This document shows positions 2,515-26,483 of a DNA stretch of 55,787 bases, one piece after another. Positions within the stretch are counted from its first letter, which is position 1; each line of letters opens with the position of its first letter. Position numbers and translations under genes: made by a program. The notes below the pieces were generated by a model, which was given only the letters and a program-made list of their open reading frames with translations, searched no databases and was not told the origin of the DNA. The stretch is from Candidatus Omnitrophota bacterium (GTDB lineage Bacteria > Omnitrophota > Gorgyraeia > Zapsychrales > JANLHA01): NCBI GenBank assembly GCA_029560465.1, contig JAKQKX010000087.1, positions 1 through 55,787 of the forward strand, given 5' to 3'.

Positions 2515-3933
2515 TTAAGAATAAATAAATTTCCGCTCGTAATTTAGTTCCACCCCGTAAGGGAAATCGTGGTAATGATAAACGACGATTTCCATGTCTG
2601 CCCCCGCGAATTTCAGGAGGGCCTTTCGGAATTTTTGTCTTAAATCCGGAGTCAGGGGGATGTGTTTTTTCAGTTGGATTTCGATCTGCCCGATATTTTG
2701 CTGGCCGCTCATCCGGAAACAGCCGGTCGTTAATCCTGCCACTTCGGTGTCGCTATAGAGCCCTTCCTTAATGTCTTCCGGGTAGACGGATTTCCCTTGC
2801 AGGTCAAGGTTTTTGTTCGTTCGTCCCTGCAGGGCCAGAAGAGGGAGTTTAAGTTTTGGGAGCAGGTCGCCTCGTTGTTCTTCGGCCAGGATATTTTTGA
2901 GAGTGTTATGAGAGAGCAGAAAGCCGTTGTCGTTGGTATTGTAACGGATCAGCGGAGTCAGGGCTTTCGGATTCAACATTGTAAAAATTAATTCATGTTG
3001 AGAAGAGGTTTCCAGGAAGAAGCGGTTAGGGTAATAAACTAGCAGTTCCGGGCATACCTGTCTCCCCTGGTTTCCGAGGACTTTTCGCCGGAATTCCGGA
3101 TTCTTCTGCATTTCTGCACGGAGGCGGATCGTTTCAATCGTTTCGTGAGCCAGGGACAGATCAAGTTCCGTGACGCCGAAATTGGCGCCAATATATCCCT
3201 GTTCGGGCCGGTTAAAATCCACGCCGAGCAGTTGTGCCATGTAGTGGCGATAACTGTCGGAGAACCATTCGGATCCCAGGATGAGGCTCACGTTGATTTT
3301 CGGCCAGTCCAGCCCGGCTGTGCAGCCATCTTCGACGAGTTTTTTAAGAAAACAGGGGTCTCCGACAATTAAAAATTGTTCAAAAGCCGTTTGGAGCTTC
3401 TGCAGAATCGAAAGGGCCAGGTCGCTGCGGACACTGGTTTCCGCCATCGGCAGGGCGGACGGTATTTTGACCCCCATCGGCAGGCAGTTGAGGAGAAATG
3501 TTTTTTTCCTGGAAATCTGAAACAAGTATTCCAGGATCGTGTCGATCATGAATGCCGTCTCCTGCCTGTCGGAGAAAGTCCCGAAGCCGTACGAATTTTT
3601 CTCGGAGAAACCGGAGCTGACCATCACGTTGGCCAGGGAGTTGACCTGGCCCTGCATGAGGAGTTCTTCGATTGCAGACGACGGGAAAATATCTTCTTTG
3701 GCAATAACAGGGACTTTTTGCTTGAAATCGGTTAAGGTGTTAATGTCGTCGGATGACAGACCGTAATCAGAGAGGATCTTCCTGTAGGCGGGCAACTGCC
3801 GGGCCGCGCGCCGGAACGCGGGGAGGATGAGTTTGCGGCCGTGGGCTTCAATCGCTTCCGGGGCCGACTGGGTTAATAAATTTAAGATTTGGGTTCTTTT
3901 ATATCGATCAAAAAATTTTTTAAAAGGATTCAT
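2515..3933 (-). CDS. PaaK-like adenylate-forming enzyme (phenylacetate-CoA ligase family)
   Basis: A 472-residue protein resembling the phenylacetate-CoA ligase/CoF synthetase branch of ANL enzymes, which activate a carboxylic acid as an acyl-AMP. Visible landmarks are a VMVSSGFSEK segment at the position of the phosphate-binding loop, RYNTNDNG at the position of the usual RYxTGD, and a YPEDIKEGL segment near the C-terminal domain, in line with the family's hinge region. The P-loop is degenerate (SSGFSEK for SSGTTGK), so the acid or even the activity may be unusual. The start at 3933 follows the upstream stop by 7 bases, which suggests translational coupling; an earlier in-frame ATG at 3987 would overlap the porin-like gene. 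Acid, acceptor and partner are not known. Confidence 0.7.
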   Translation of the reverse strand: MNPFKKFFDRYKRTQILNLLTQSAPEAIEAHGRKLILPAFRRAARQLPAYRKILSDYGLSSDDINTLTDFKQKVPVIAKEDIFPSSAIEELLMQGQVNSLANVMVSSGFSEKNSYGFGTFSDRQETAFMIDTILEYLFQISRKKTFLLNCLPMGVKIPSALPMAETSVRSDLALSILQKLQTAFEQFLIVGDPCFLKKLVEDGCTAGLDWPKINVSLILGSEWFSDSYRHYMAQLLGVDFNRPEQGYIGANFGVTELDLSLAHETIETIRLRAEMQKNPEFRRKVLGNQGRQVCPELLVYYPNRFFLETSSQHELIFTMLNPKALTPLIRYNTNDNGFLLSHNTLKNILAEEQRGDLLPKLKLPLLALQGRTNKNLDLQGKSVYPEDIKEGLYSDTEVAGLTTGCFRMSGQQNIGQIEIQLKKHIPLTPDLRQKFRKALLKFAGADMEIVVYHYHDFPYGVELNYERKFIYS

Positions 3934-19272: not shown

Positions 19273-19415
19273 AAATGTTTTTTAAAAAATACATAACTTC
19301 TCATAATATATGTTATGTTAACTTGCTGGTTATTTTTGAAGGGAGACATCCTATACGGTAAAACAGTTTTTTGTGATTTAATATAATCGGCAACGCAGCT
19401 TGCTGCGGAATCCGG

Positions 19416-20014: not shown

Positions 20015-21541
20015 TTAAGGTTTATCTTGTTGTGAGCTTTTGTCCGGGGTGGGTTTTTCCTCTTGGCCTTCTGTCGCCGACTTTTTCTCAGGATTTTGAG
20101 CGATAATGTCTGGCCCAAGGTGTGGGTGCCCATCGGTTGCTTTTTTTTCTAAGGAAAGATTTAAGAGGTTCAATAGTCCCTTCTTAGCCGGTGAATTTGT
20201 TTCAGAGTCAATGCTTGGAGTGGGTTGCTTTTCTGTTTCTGAATCTTGGGTTTTTCCATTAGACATACCAGATTCAATGGTTTTTAACAAATCTTTGGGA
20301 GTGCGGTCCGTAGATTCTTTAAAATCTTTGGAAGGCCGCTGCTGGGTGTCTGAGGATGGTGGTGACAAAGAAATGTCTGACTGTGACTCTGTAGCCGCCG
20401 ATGTCTGTCCTGAAGTTGTGTTTTGATCTGGCAATGGTTTTTCAGTATCAGGAGAGCTCGGGATTGGGGTTTCCTGGGTTCTTTTGGGATCGGGAGGATT
20501 TTCATTATCGGCTGATGCTAGAAGACGGATTCGGTCAACGTCATCAATTTTCGAAGGGTTAAGCGATTTCGTGGGGGGAACGGCCTGGCCTCCTCCTTCC
20601 TGATTTTGGGTGGAGGATGATGCGATGTTGACTGGGGCAGCAATCGGGGCTGGATTCGGGAGCTGATCTTTAGGGGGCCCTTCCGGTAAATCTTTAAGTA
20701 AAGGAACAAGAGAATTAATTTTTCTGTCTTTTTCTGCGATAACGGGATCTAAATTTTTAATTTTTTTGTCAAGAGTTTCCAACTCCTTTTGGTGTTGCTT
20801 CGCCTCTTGTTGTTGTCCTTTCATCTGGTCAGTTTTTTCCTGAACTTCAACATCAAATTTCTTAATCTTTTCTTCTAACTGTTTGACTCTCTTTAAATAC
20901 GAGTCTGCCTCGGTCTGCGCCTGGGCCAAGTCAATTTGAAGGCTTCGATTCTTTTCTTTGGAATCTTTGAGTTCTTTTTCCAGAATATCCTTTATTTTAT
21001 TAAATTCTTTGCGGCTTTTAAGTTCGATTTCCAAATCTTTCGTTACTTGTTCAATTTCTTTGTTTTTTTCCTCTAGGAGAGCTTCGTGTTTTTCATTTTT
21101 GGATTGCATTTCGGCGATGTCACGTTTGAGCTGTTCATTTTGAGCGAGGAGACGCTTTTCGGATTCGTCGGCAGTCTTTTCTGCCTCTAACCGAAGCGAG
21201 GCTGTCCCCTGTGTTTTCGTGGAGTTTTGTGGGGCAAGAGTGAAGCCTCGAGCGGAATGAGCGTGATCCGTTTGATGCTTGGATGATTCTCCCTCCTCTT
21301 CCGGTGTGGTTCCGATGGGGTGGTCAGGATCTTCATTCAGACCGAGCTGTTTTAGTATTTGAGATGTGGTTAGGGTGCTGCCATTCGTTGTTTTCTTGGG
21401 GGGGGGAATTTTCGGGGGAGCTGTTTTATCAGCAAGAAAGAGCCAGATAACAGCCCCTATCCCAAGAACCAGTATGCTTGCGCCAATATAAATAATGAGG
21501 TACACCGAATAAGTCCCTTTTGCTATTTTTCGCCTTGTCAC
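20015..21541 (-). CDS. Membrane-anchored coiled-coil protein with disordered C-terminus
   Basis: A 508-residue protein starting at GTG. It has one membrane helix at about 11-32, a Pro/Lys-rich linker (PPKIPPPKK), a long coiled coil at about 118-280 made of Glu/Lys/Leu heptads, and a tail of about 210 residues rich in Pro, Ser, Thr, Asp and Glu with no predicted fold. No enzyme motif is visible. It precedes the cyclophilin gene by about 30 bases. The architecture suggests a periplasm-facing structural or tethering protein. I do not recognise a named family. Confidence 0.8.
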   Translation of the reverse strand: MTRRKIAKGTYSVYLIIYIGASILVLGIGAVIWLFLADKTAPPKIPPPKKTTNGSTLTTSQILKQLGLNEDPDHPIGTTPEEEGESSKHQTDHAHSARGFTLAPQNSTKTQGTASLRLEAEKTADESEKRLLAQNEQLKRDIAEMQSKNEKHEALLEEKNKEIEQVTKDLEIELKSRKEFNKIKDILEKELKDSKEKNRSLQIDLAQAQTEADSYLKRVKQLEEKIKKFDVEVQEKTDQMKGQQQEAKQHQKELETLDKKIKNLDPVIAEKDRKINSLVPLLKDLPEGPPKDQLPNPAPIAAPVNIASSSTQNQEGGGQAVPPTKSLNPSKIDDVDRIRLLASADNENPPDPKRTQETPIPSSPDTEKPLPDQNTTSGQTSAATESQSDISLSPPSSDTQQRPSKDFKESTDRTPKDLLKTIESGMSNGKTQDSETEKQPTPSIDSETNSPAKKGLLNLLNLSLEKKATDGHPHLGPDIIAQNPEKKSATEGQEEKPTPDKSSQQDKP

Positions 21542-21587: not shown

Positions 21588-22203
21588 ATGATTTATTATA
21601 TTTTGTTATCAGCCGGTTTTAGCCAGCGTTTCGGGGCCCCTAAAGCTTTGACGCCGTTCAAAAATGAAAAAGTCATAGCACACGCTCTTGGCTTCAAATG
21701 TCGACGTCATCAGAGTTGTTCTCGAAGCTGACGCGGATAAAATAAAACCGTTTCTATTTAACCACAAAAAGGTTTATATTGTCTATATAAAGATTATAAA
21801 TTTTGGACAAACATCTTCTTCCCAGCGAGGATCACGCAATTGCCAGTCTGCGTGTCGGGGCGTGTTCCTATGCCACGGCGAAATATCCCCTTGTTAAGAC
21901 AGAAACGTTTAATCAGCTGATCTCCTGTTTCAATACACACCGGCCTGATTGCTTCTTCCCGTTTAGGATGGAAAACGAGGGCATCCACCGCTTTTGGGTT
22001 CGGAATTGATTCCTGAAATCTTGGTTTTTAAAGACAGGACAGGATGTCCTGAGGTCATTCGGGACCACAGTGAAAACGTGTCTTTGCTGCTGGTTGATGA
22101 TTCGGGGGGCCTGCCAATATCCAACACCCTGAAGAATTTGAGAGCTTTTAAAAATGTTTTTGAGTTTTCGTCCGCATTTCTGCCCAAAATTCACCATTTT
22201 TAA
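21588..22203 (+). pseudogene. Decayed MobA/MocA-like molybdopterin nucleotidyltransferase
   Basis: The pieces of one nucleotidyltransferase lie in order but in different frames. Frame 3 from 21588 has ILLSAGFSQRFGAPKAL, the nucleotide-binding loop. Frame 1 near 21690 has VIRVVLEADADKIKPFL. Frame 2 near 21800-21950 has KYPLVKTETFNQLISCF. Frame 1 again from 21967 has DGKRGHPPLLGSELIPEIL, the family's GxRGHP block, and ends SLLLVDDSGGLPISNTLKNL. That is at least three frameshifts plus an in-frame TAG at 21964-21966. The intact family adds CMP or GMP to molybdopterin. A second relic of a molybdenum enzyme lies at 22812-23051. Confidence 0.82.
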
Positions 22204-22229
22204 CGATGATTAAAGGGCTTGCAGATTTT

Positions 22230-22604
22230 TTATTCTGGGAAAGCGATGACCGTTGCGGAATAATTGGCCCGGACATAAGCGTTCCCAATAAATTTTTGTG
22301 CAGGAAATTTCTTCCAGGATCCTGTCGCGTTACTTTGGATGTTCGTGATAGCATCTCCTCCGAGCCTGGCGGCCTCGGTTTTCATCCGGTAGAGGATGTC
22401 TTCCATTTCTTGGTTCCGTTCCGTATTTACCGTGATATATCCGATGATTTCATGTGGTTGAGTTAACTGCTCCACGACTTGGACATTTTCTGGGGACTTG
22501 GGGACGTAATAGTTGTCGGTCACTTCCTCGAAGTTCACGCGATAAAGGCTGCAGGAGGAAGTCAACAAGACGGTACATAACACAATCACTAAGGTTTTTA
22601 TCAT
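22230..22604 (-). CDS. Small lipoprotein of unknown function
   Basis: A 124-residue protein with a lipoprotein signal peptide: MIKTLVIVLCTVLLTSSC, where LTSSC is the lipobox and the Cys is residue 18. The mature part has the stretch TEAARLGGDAITNIQ, which resembles the LGANAIVNV-type motif of small heavy-metal-binding-like or YbjQ-like folds; this is only a weak likeness. ATG 22604 is preferred over ATG 22613, because an AGGAGGG site would touch the latter and lies 9 bases before the former. It stands alone between two decayed genes. Confidence 0.75.
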   Translation of the reverse strand: MIKTLVIVLCTVLLTSSCSLYRVNFEEVTDNYYVPKSPENVQVVEQLTQPHEIIGYITVNTERNQEMEDILYRMKTEAARLGGDAITNIQSNATGSWKKFPAQKFIGNAYVRANYSATVIAFPE

Positions 22605-22811
22605 AACAATCATCCCTCCTTCTCACAATTTTGTTCTTGTGGTGCTTTTATGATTTTTTCGGGCATTATGGGCAATTCTTTAATGTGGGAAGCTGAGTGA
22701 GGATTTTCATAAAACATGTACCCCACCCAGTTCCATCACTTAACTTTATAACATTTTTCGCAATAATATCAAGATCATTTATATTACATTTAAATTTTTA
22801 AGCGGTAATTT

Positions 22812-23051
22812 TCAAGATTTAAAGTGATCATGGATTTTGTAATGAGCGTTCCTCTGTCCCTGTTCAACCTGGAGCCCTTTAAGCTTTGAGATGCCTTTCA
22901 AGGGGGCAAATCTGATTTTTGGGCGGCTTTCAGCTGGTTGATCAGCATCGTTCCGTTTGCTAACTAACTTGGCATTCGGAAAATCCTGACACAGATCAGC
23001 CGCTTTTGGGAGTGACGTTGGCCGATGATATGTCAAAGGGTTCAGAAGCAT
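22812..23051 (-). pseudogene. Fragment of a CoxM/CutM-like FAD-binding subunit of a molybdenum hydroxylase
   Basis: The frame from 23051 starts LLNPLTYHRPTSLPKAADLC then FPNAKLV, the typical opening of the FAD-binding medium subunit of the xanthine dehydrogenase/CO dehydrogenase family. The next block should be AGGTDLL plus a Leu/Lys helix. It is found in another frame as MLINQLKAAQKS near 22925-22962, and then the first frame resumes with APLKGISKLKGLQ. So there are two compensating frameshifts, loss of the FAD-loop sequence, and an early stop after 79 codons (the subunit is normally about 280). No downstream part of the gene is visible. Confidence 0.72.
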
Positions 23052-24951: not shown

Positions 24952-25638
24952 TTATAACAAATTGATCACTTCTTTAGGCAGGCGTCTGATTTCCTGCGTA
25001 CCCAGGACTTTAAGCGTCCAGCGGAGGATTTGAAACTTTTGGATGAGGCGGGGATCGGGTTCCGCCAAATTCGCTAGCCGCCCTCGGGATAGAAAGAATT
25101 GCCGCCGTAAAATGTTAAAGATGATCCGGGCCTCCCGGGGACGATTATTACCCTCTTCAATGATATTGTTTATCCCGGCAAAGGCCATTTCATTGACTGT
25201 ATCATTATAATGATCCATCTTGGTGATGAGCAACGGGACCATGGAATCAAAGTACTTATAGCGATCCATGAGACAAAGGGTGTGCATGATTTCAACCTGA
25301 ACGAATGGGGAGTCTGTCCGGTTTAAGCGGCGGATCAGAATCCTTTCGGCAGCCTTTTTTTCTTTGGTGAAAATCTCCTCGCAGAATTTTTCTTTGAAAA
25401 CCCGGACCGCTGCGGCGGTTTTAAACGGGGTGACGGTTTCGTCCTGAATAATCGCCAGGAGCAGCTCTTTATCCTCAAGGGCGTATTTATCGGAGTAGCC
25501 GTTGAGCATCTGTTTATCATCGAAAATACTGCTGGCTAAGAAATCATCTTCTTCAGCGGAAGAATATGAAGAATATACAGAAGCGGTGATGAAATATAAA
25601 AAAAGAAATCCGGGAATGAAAAGTTTAAGTTTCAGCAT
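24952..25638 (-). CDS. Secreted helical (HEAT-like) protein of unknown function
   Basis: A 228-residue protein with a signal peptide (MLKLKLFIPGFLFLYF, cut near YSSYSSA). The mature part is all-helical, with repeated pairs such as TPFKTAAAVRVFKEKF, SPFVQVEIMHTLCLMDRY and VNEMAFAGINNIIEEG that resemble HEAT repeats. No catalytic motif. Its start overlaps the nadC stop by 7 bases and the CPBP protease gene follows by 37, so it is co-transcribed with both. It may be a periplasmic partner of that protease. Family not recognised. Confidence 0.75.
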   Translation of the reverse strand: MLKLKLFIPGFLFLYFITASVYSSYSSAEEDDFLASSIFDDKQMLNGYSDKYALEDKELLLAIIQDETVTPFKTAAAVRVFKEKFCEEIFTKEKKAAERILIRRLNRTDSPFVQVEIMHTLCLMDRYKYFDSMVPLLITKMDHYNDTVNEMAFAGINNIIEEGNNRPREARIIFNILRRQFFLSRGRLANLAEPDPRLIQKFQILRWTLKVLGTQEIRRLPKEVINLL

Positions 25639-26483
25639 AACGCCTCTCCAAACTCCATGGAGAAATCAATGGCTCGGGGCGAATGTGTCAGTGCCCCAAT
25701 GGATATTCTGTCCACTCCGGTGAGGGCAATGTGCCGGACATTATGGAGATTAATCCCTCCGGACGCTTCGAGGAGACACGTTTTTTTTTGCCGTTTGCAA
25801 TACTGTACGGCTTTTTTTAGCTGCGGGATGCTCATGTTATCTAAAAGGACGATGTCAGGATCCGCCTCGAGGGCTTGTTTGAACTGAGCGAACGTATCGA
25901 CTTCAACAACAATAAGTTTTTTGGTTTGTCGCCGGACGTGCCGGATGGCATCTCTCACGGTGGCGTCCTTTTCATAAGCCAACAGATGATTGTCTTTAAT
26001 AATAACCATTTCATTCAGGTTAAACCTGTGATTGACTCCGCCGCCGCACCGGACCGCCATTTTTACCAGAGCCCTCAGTCCGGGGATTGTTTTGCGGGTG
26101 TCCATAATTTTGACCGGCAAATCAGACACTTTATCGACAAAACGGTTTGTCAATGTGGCGATCCCGGAAAGATAAGAAAAAAAATTGAGAGCCACCCTTT
26201 CTCCGGAGAGCAATGCTCGTGTTTTTCCTTCAAAACTGATAACTTTCTGGTTTTTTAACACTTCCTCCCCGTCCTGGGCATGACAGGTGATTTTCATTTT
26301 TTTATCCAACCTGCGGAAAATAGCGGTGATGATCTCTAGGCCGCAGACCATACAGGTTTCCCTAGAGATAATTGTCGCCTTGGAGATTTGGTCTTCACTG
26401 ACCAAGCAATGGGTGGTTACGTCTCTGTCGCTGTGGTCTTCCTGGAGCGCTTGCTGTATAGCTTTGTTGATAACGGCACGCAT
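25632..26483 (-). CDS. nadC: Nicotinate-nucleotide pyrophosphorylase (carboxylating)
   Basis: A 283-residue quinolinate phosphoribosyltransferase of normal length. Landmarks are LALNFFSYLSGIAT-like RVALNFFSYLSGIATLTNR, the substrate-binding DTRKTIPGLR, GGGVNHRFNL, IKDNHL, VEVDTF, and the C-terminal EASGGINLHNV. It converts quinolinate and PRPP to nicotinate mononucleotide, CO2 and PPi in NAD synthesis. nadA and nadB are not in the window. It follows valS by 14 bases and overlaps the next gene by 7 bases. Confidence 0.97.
   Translation of the reverse strand: MRAVINKAIQQALQEDHSDRDVTTHCLVSEDQISKATIISRETCMVCGLEIITAIFRRLDKKMKITCHAQDGEEVLKNQKVISFEGKTRALLSGERVALNFFSYLSGIATLTNRFVDKVSDLPVKIMDTRKTIPGLRALVKMAVRCGGGVNHRFNLNEMVIIKDNHLLAYEKDATVRDAIRHVRRQTKKLIVVEVDTFAQFKQALEADPDIVLLDNMSIPQLKKAVQYCKRQKKTCLLEASGGINLHNVRHIALTGVDRISIGALTHSPRAIDFSMEFGEALC

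Follow-up and report, generated by a model that had tools for sequence, protein, structure and literature searches.

Molybdenum hydroxylases and loss of molybdenum use

The closest described systems to the locus reported here are molybdenum hydroxylases with three subunits from the xanthine oxidase family: XdhABC, HcrABC (4-hydroxybenzoyl-CoA reductase) and CoxMSL. As in these systems, the operons found in intact relatives of our locus encode subunits with FAD_binding_5, 2Fe-2S and MoCoBD_1/MoCoBD_2 domains, accompanied by the accessory genes for MocA and XdhC. MocA is the molybdenum cofactor cytidylyltransferase, which adds cytosine to the cofactor. Unlike the described systems, no subunit of the relatives reaches a curated function-specific cut-off, while the window (the whole stretch of 55,787 nucleotides analysed here) contains fragments only.

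That prokaryotes have lost the molybdenum utilisation trait in parallel is established, and a link with host association has been drawn (BMC Genomics 2018, PMC6147048). The event recorded in the window is therefore gene decay of an ordinary, known kind: as in that study, a molybdoenzyme and cofactor synthesis have been lost, and in several lineages, but here an intermediate stage is seen, with relics still in place. A search of open papers returned no description of molybdenum loss in Omnitrophota, or of its recurrence within one Omnitrophota order. The analysis leaves us almost certain that an ancestral molybdenum hydroxylase operon has decayed in the window's genome, and that the cofactor pathway was lost once its client had gone. 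The worth of the case lies in its half-eroded state and its recurrence, which make it a clear and checkable example: the decay has been caught half-way, and is apparently repeated across several related lineages.

Three relics at the operon site

The features on which the comparison is based are as follows.

19273-19415, no strand: gap of 143 bp separating the genes for cyclophilin and DUF134; XdhC (maturation factor) and a PNPOx-like gene occupy this place in relatives
21588-22164, plus strand: MocA-type cytidylyltransferase pseudogene, with three to four frame changes, an in-frame TAG and loss of the catalytic Asp (PVD)
22230-22613, minus strand: small intact lipoprotein gene with an LTSSC lipobox; relatives conserve it whether or not they have the hydroxylase
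22613-22684, minus strand: 3' relic of the gene for the large, molybdenum-binding subunit, consisting of 24 C-terminal residues (IKELPIMPEKIIKAPQEQNCEKEG) and a stop codon
22685-22819, minus strand: 135-bp remainder between the FAD and Mo relics; the rest of the FAD gene, the whole [2Fe-2S] gene and most of the Mo gene are gone
22820-23051, minus strand: 5' relic of the FAD subunit gene (CoxM/XdhB-like, FAD_binding_5), approximately the first 81 of 281 codons
23058-24914, minus strand: intact CAAX-protease-family membrane protein with a YcdB/PepSY-like region; in relatives, immediately upstream of the FAD subunit

The MocA relic reads from 21588 as MIYYILLSAGFSQRFGAPKALTPF... and, after changes of frame, goes on to DGKRGHPPLLGSELIPEIL...VDDSGGLPISNT; it retains the N-terminal LLSAGFSQRFGAPKAL as well as DGKRGHPP. 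Frame-aware alignment with intact relatives spans residues 1 to approximately 193 and requires three to four frame changes and one or two stops, the in-frame TAG standing directly before DGKRGHPP; the scores of 245-286 compare with a mean of ~30 (SD 4.6) for shuffles. This bears out the first-pass annotation, which had described a MobA/MocA-like gene broken by at least three frameshifts and an in-frame TAG with GKRGHPP preserved, and the identity can now be narrowed to MocA. When the relic frames are stitched together (X at the breaks), they match NTP_transf_3 (PF12804) at 4.4e-14, and the best NCBI model is TIGR03310, MocA, at 68 bits, compared to 25 bits for MobA, both scores lying below the model cut-offs, as expected for a relic. 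With neither an open frame nor the catalytic Asp, this is a pseudogene and a non-functional member of its family. Among the columns invariant in nine intact MocA copies, the relic retains 18 of 25, the Asp of the PVD motif being among the residues replaced; of the 25-30 columns that do not vary among the other copies, each intact copy retains 25. The relic is on average 38% identical to the intact copies, which share 43-50% identity among themselves; the decay is therefore recent compared with the family's age.

The FAD relic, read from 23051 on the minus strand as MLLNPLTYHRPTSLPKAADLCQDFPNAKL...LANGTMLINQLKAAQKSDLPP, corresponds to the N-terminal end of the FAD subunit of the relative G004, with 37 of 81 aligned residues identical and a score of 119 versus 29 ± 4 for shuffles. 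It represents the N-terminal part of FAD_binding_5 only, an assignment that is marginal by Pfam alone (E = 0.077) and that rests on the syntenic G004 match. The CoxM/CutM-like start had been correctly recognised in the first pass, with a start at 23051 implied by its end coordinate; the strand, which was left unstated, is minus. The two compensating shifts proposed for it are plausible and not unique, as one to three frame changes are counted according to the reference used.

A third relic, absent from the earlier reading, lies directly upstream of the lipoprotein gene. Here IKELPIMPEKIIKAPQEQNCEKEG and its stop codon match the C-terminal 24 residues of the Mo subunit in G004, with a score of 60 versus 29 ± 3. 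In G004, the two points matched by the FAD and Mo relics are ~3.3 kb apart, compared to 135 bp in the window; ~3.2 kb has thus been deleted between them. No remnant of the FeS subunit scored above shuffles in the 135-bp remainder, nor did any XdhC or PNPOx-like relic at 19273-19415. The window consequently holds no whole operon: the FeS gene is absent, and the Mo gene is reduced to 24 residues. An RNA search of the window returned four tRNAs only, and no Moco riboswitch or other RNA.

It could be argued that these pieces are chance matches, or belong to unrelated families such as IspD- or GlmU-type transferases, the weak Pfam score of the FAD piece being the point in favour. Shuffles never reached the observed scores, however, MocA is the best model, and the order and strand of the pieces agree exactly with those of intact operons, so that the synteny contradicts this explanation; its likelihood is vanishingly small.

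Synteny with intact operons

Synteny was examined at loci L041-L050, and the domains of the intact relatives were checked by Pfam. The order in relatives is ValRS, quinolinate phosphoribosyltransferase, an unknown gene, CAAX, FAD, FeS, Mo and lipoprotein, followed by convergent MocA, the coiled-coil gene, cyclophilin, XdhC, PNPOx-like and DUF134. The window shares this order, except that FeS, XdhC, PNPOx-like and the greater part of Mo are missing and that MocA and FAD are broken. Intact operons collinear with the three relics occur in 10 relatives, and in G003 the collinearity extends across two contig ends. Intact sister copies, which the first-pass annotation had proposed as a check, are indeed present in the identical place and orientation. 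Variations do occur at the locus: CAAX is absent in G001 and G012, the lipoprotein gene is undetected in G016, and some of the contigs stop short.

The genes flanking the relics are full length, with open frames. The lipoprotein gene, which persists in most of the genomes examined that have lost the operon, is a gene in its own right, independent of the enzyme. The YcdB/PepSY-like part of the CAAX-protease-family protein is N-terminal; this protein lies beside the operon in many relatives and is missing in G012 and in several other genomes that lost the hydroxylase. The quinolinate phosphoribosyltransferase gene (NAD synthesis) is found at 25632-26483 in the window, and in relatives it lies a short way upstream of the hydroxylase operon; in G012 (L050, 5615-8151), four unidentified genes separate it from ValRS. 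The coiled-coil gene of the window (20015-21541) stands alone and has no Pfam match, while its G004 homologue (L042, 14390-17614) shares a single ORF with elongation factor G, in which it is N-terminal.

Type of the lost enzyme

Judged by the intact relatives, the lost enzyme was a three-subunit, XdhABC-like hydroxylase. Among the NCBI models, the intact Mo subunit is closest to the 4-hydroxybenzoyl-CoA reductase alpha subunit (HcrA), at 713 bits against a cut-off of 994.55, with XdhA following next; among solved structures, 4-hydroxybenzoyl-CoA reductase is again the best match (1rm6, E = 6e-144). All Mo-subunit scores fall under the function-specific model cut-offs. These model and structure matches settle the family of the enzyme and not its substrate; a nicotinate-type substrate, suggested by the quinolinate phosphoribosyltransferase neighbour, would be purely a guess. 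CO dehydrogenase (CoxMSL) was also considered as a reading of the FAD piece, and the model scores do not support it: the G004 Mo subunit scores 284 bits on TIGR02416 (CoxL) against a cut-off of 991, and since the Mo subunit is nearest to the 4-hydroxybenzoyl-CoA reductase and XdhA models, this enzyme is not indicated.

Molybdenum markers in the rest of the genome

The source genome, from the uncultured phylum Omnitrophota, is a draft of 2,766,080 bases in 103 contigs, 95.7% complete with 0.8% contamination. By its valyl-tRNA synthetase, its closest named relatives are draft genomes of Candidatus Omnitrophota. Searches that were positive in control genomes detected no FAD_binding_5 (PF00941), MoCoBD_1 (PF02738) or Molydop_binding (PF01568, DMSO-reductase-type) domain in it, and no MoaA, MoaC, MoeA or ModA. 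MoaA, MoaC and MoeA, by which a molybdenum-using organism may be recognised, are thus all lacking; the absence of ModA adds little, as this protein is patchy even among molybdenum users. Since neither a further hydroxylase FAD or Mo subunit nor any of the tested cofactor, ModA or DMSO-reductase-type markers is present in the assembly, molybdenum use looks to have been lost altogether. The first-pass annotation had read the relics as decay of a whole pathway with the lipoprotein gene kept between them, and had suggested a search for further moa, moe or cox genes; both ideas fared well, as none of the cofactor or hydroxylase genes tested occurs elsewhere in the genome, the sister copies are intact, and so is the lipoprotein gene.

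Two other explanations bear on these absences. The operon alone may have decayed, with molybdenum use continuing through other enzymes and with the cofactor genes unassembled: ~4% of the genome may be missing, and seven relatives possess at least one cofactor gene with no detected hydroxylase. A single missing gene might be an assembly gap; however, six further cofactor, enzyme or transport markers are jointly absent, and a gap is an unlikely cause because they lie on different contigs in relatives. We give this explanation only a slim chance. Alternatively, the genes may be intact in the organism, the frameshifts and gap being sequencing or assembly errors, which is formally possible in a multi-contig draft. 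Yet the breaks are limited to genes of one pathway, with the neighbours open, and such errors would neither remove ~3.2 kb and XdhC nor erase MoaA, MoaC, MoeA and ModA elsewhere; moreover, substitutions have removed conserved residues from the relic MocA as well. The chance of an artefact is very slim.

Decay of the operon together with loss of the cofactor pathway hence remains the preferred reading. From the relics, their exact synteny and the absence of the other genes from the assembly, all directly observed, we infer the order of events. The ancestor carried an operon for a three-subunit hydroxylase of the xanthine dehydrogenase family (FAD, [2Fe-2S] and Mo subunits), with convergent mocA and with xdhC nearby. 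In the lineage of the window, the enzyme then became dispensable; mocA and the FAD gene would have been broken by point mutations and frameshifts, ~3.2 kb would have been deleted from inside the FAD gene to just short of the end of the Mo gene, and xdhC would also have been lost. Once this client had disappeared, the pathway for the molybdenum cofactor (MoaA, MoaC, MoeA) would have been lost as well, and the neighbours, including the lipoprotein gene, would have remained intact. The hydroxylase was presumably the main reason for keeping the cofactor, since G004 combines a hydroxylase and cofactor genes with no DMSO-reductase-type domain. The locus illustrates how bacteria lose a trace metal, in that the enzyme, its maturation factors and synthesis of the cofactor have gone together, leaving fragments in place.

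Probable repeated losses across the order

Four core markers (FAD subunit, MoaA, MoaC and MoeA) were compared in 81 genomes of the order, including that of the window. All four are missing from 22 genomes; 52 carry the hydroxylase, including G003, whose operon is divided between two contig ends and which was for that reason scored as a carrier, and all 52 keep at least one of MoaA, MoaC and MoeA. The remaining seven, several of them incomplete genomes, have cofactor genes and no detected hydroxylase. In 20 carriers, all three cofactor genes are present with no Molydop_binding domain. As roughly a quarter of the compared genomes are free of these markers, the cause of the repeated loss could be tested against habitat and lifestyle.

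A tree built from up to five conserved neighbouring proteins yields six loss events, compared to a mean of 18 changes with shuffled labels: the window's genome (G000), G002, G011, G036, G018 with G057, and a clade of 15 genomes. G000 is paired with the carrier G004 (support 93/80), its likely sister genome. A loss shared by G000 and G002 was considered; the tree favours G000 with G004, and the alternative is not rejected (p-AU 0.35), for which reason the data suggest five to six separate losses in the order. Tentatively, and with slightly less than even confidence, we propose that one hydroxylase is often the only client of the cofactor, and that its loss repeatedly tips lineages out of molybdenum use, leaving the neighbours behind. 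If so, the window would display that step half-way.

In most of the other genomes examined that lost the operon, it was cleanly removed, and the lipoprotein gene stands beside the former upstream neighbours. Frame-aware scoring detected no relics in G018 (FAD, Mo), G036 or G002. In G057 (L140, 6064-6114) and G011 (L150, ~3826-3873), both molybdenum-free, a short MocA stretch corresponding to residues ~57-76 (for example, LLKHIKIKVVYNKYYYF) is seemingly kept at the former place of mocA, scoring 56-63 against 28 for shuffles in G057 and more weakly in G011.
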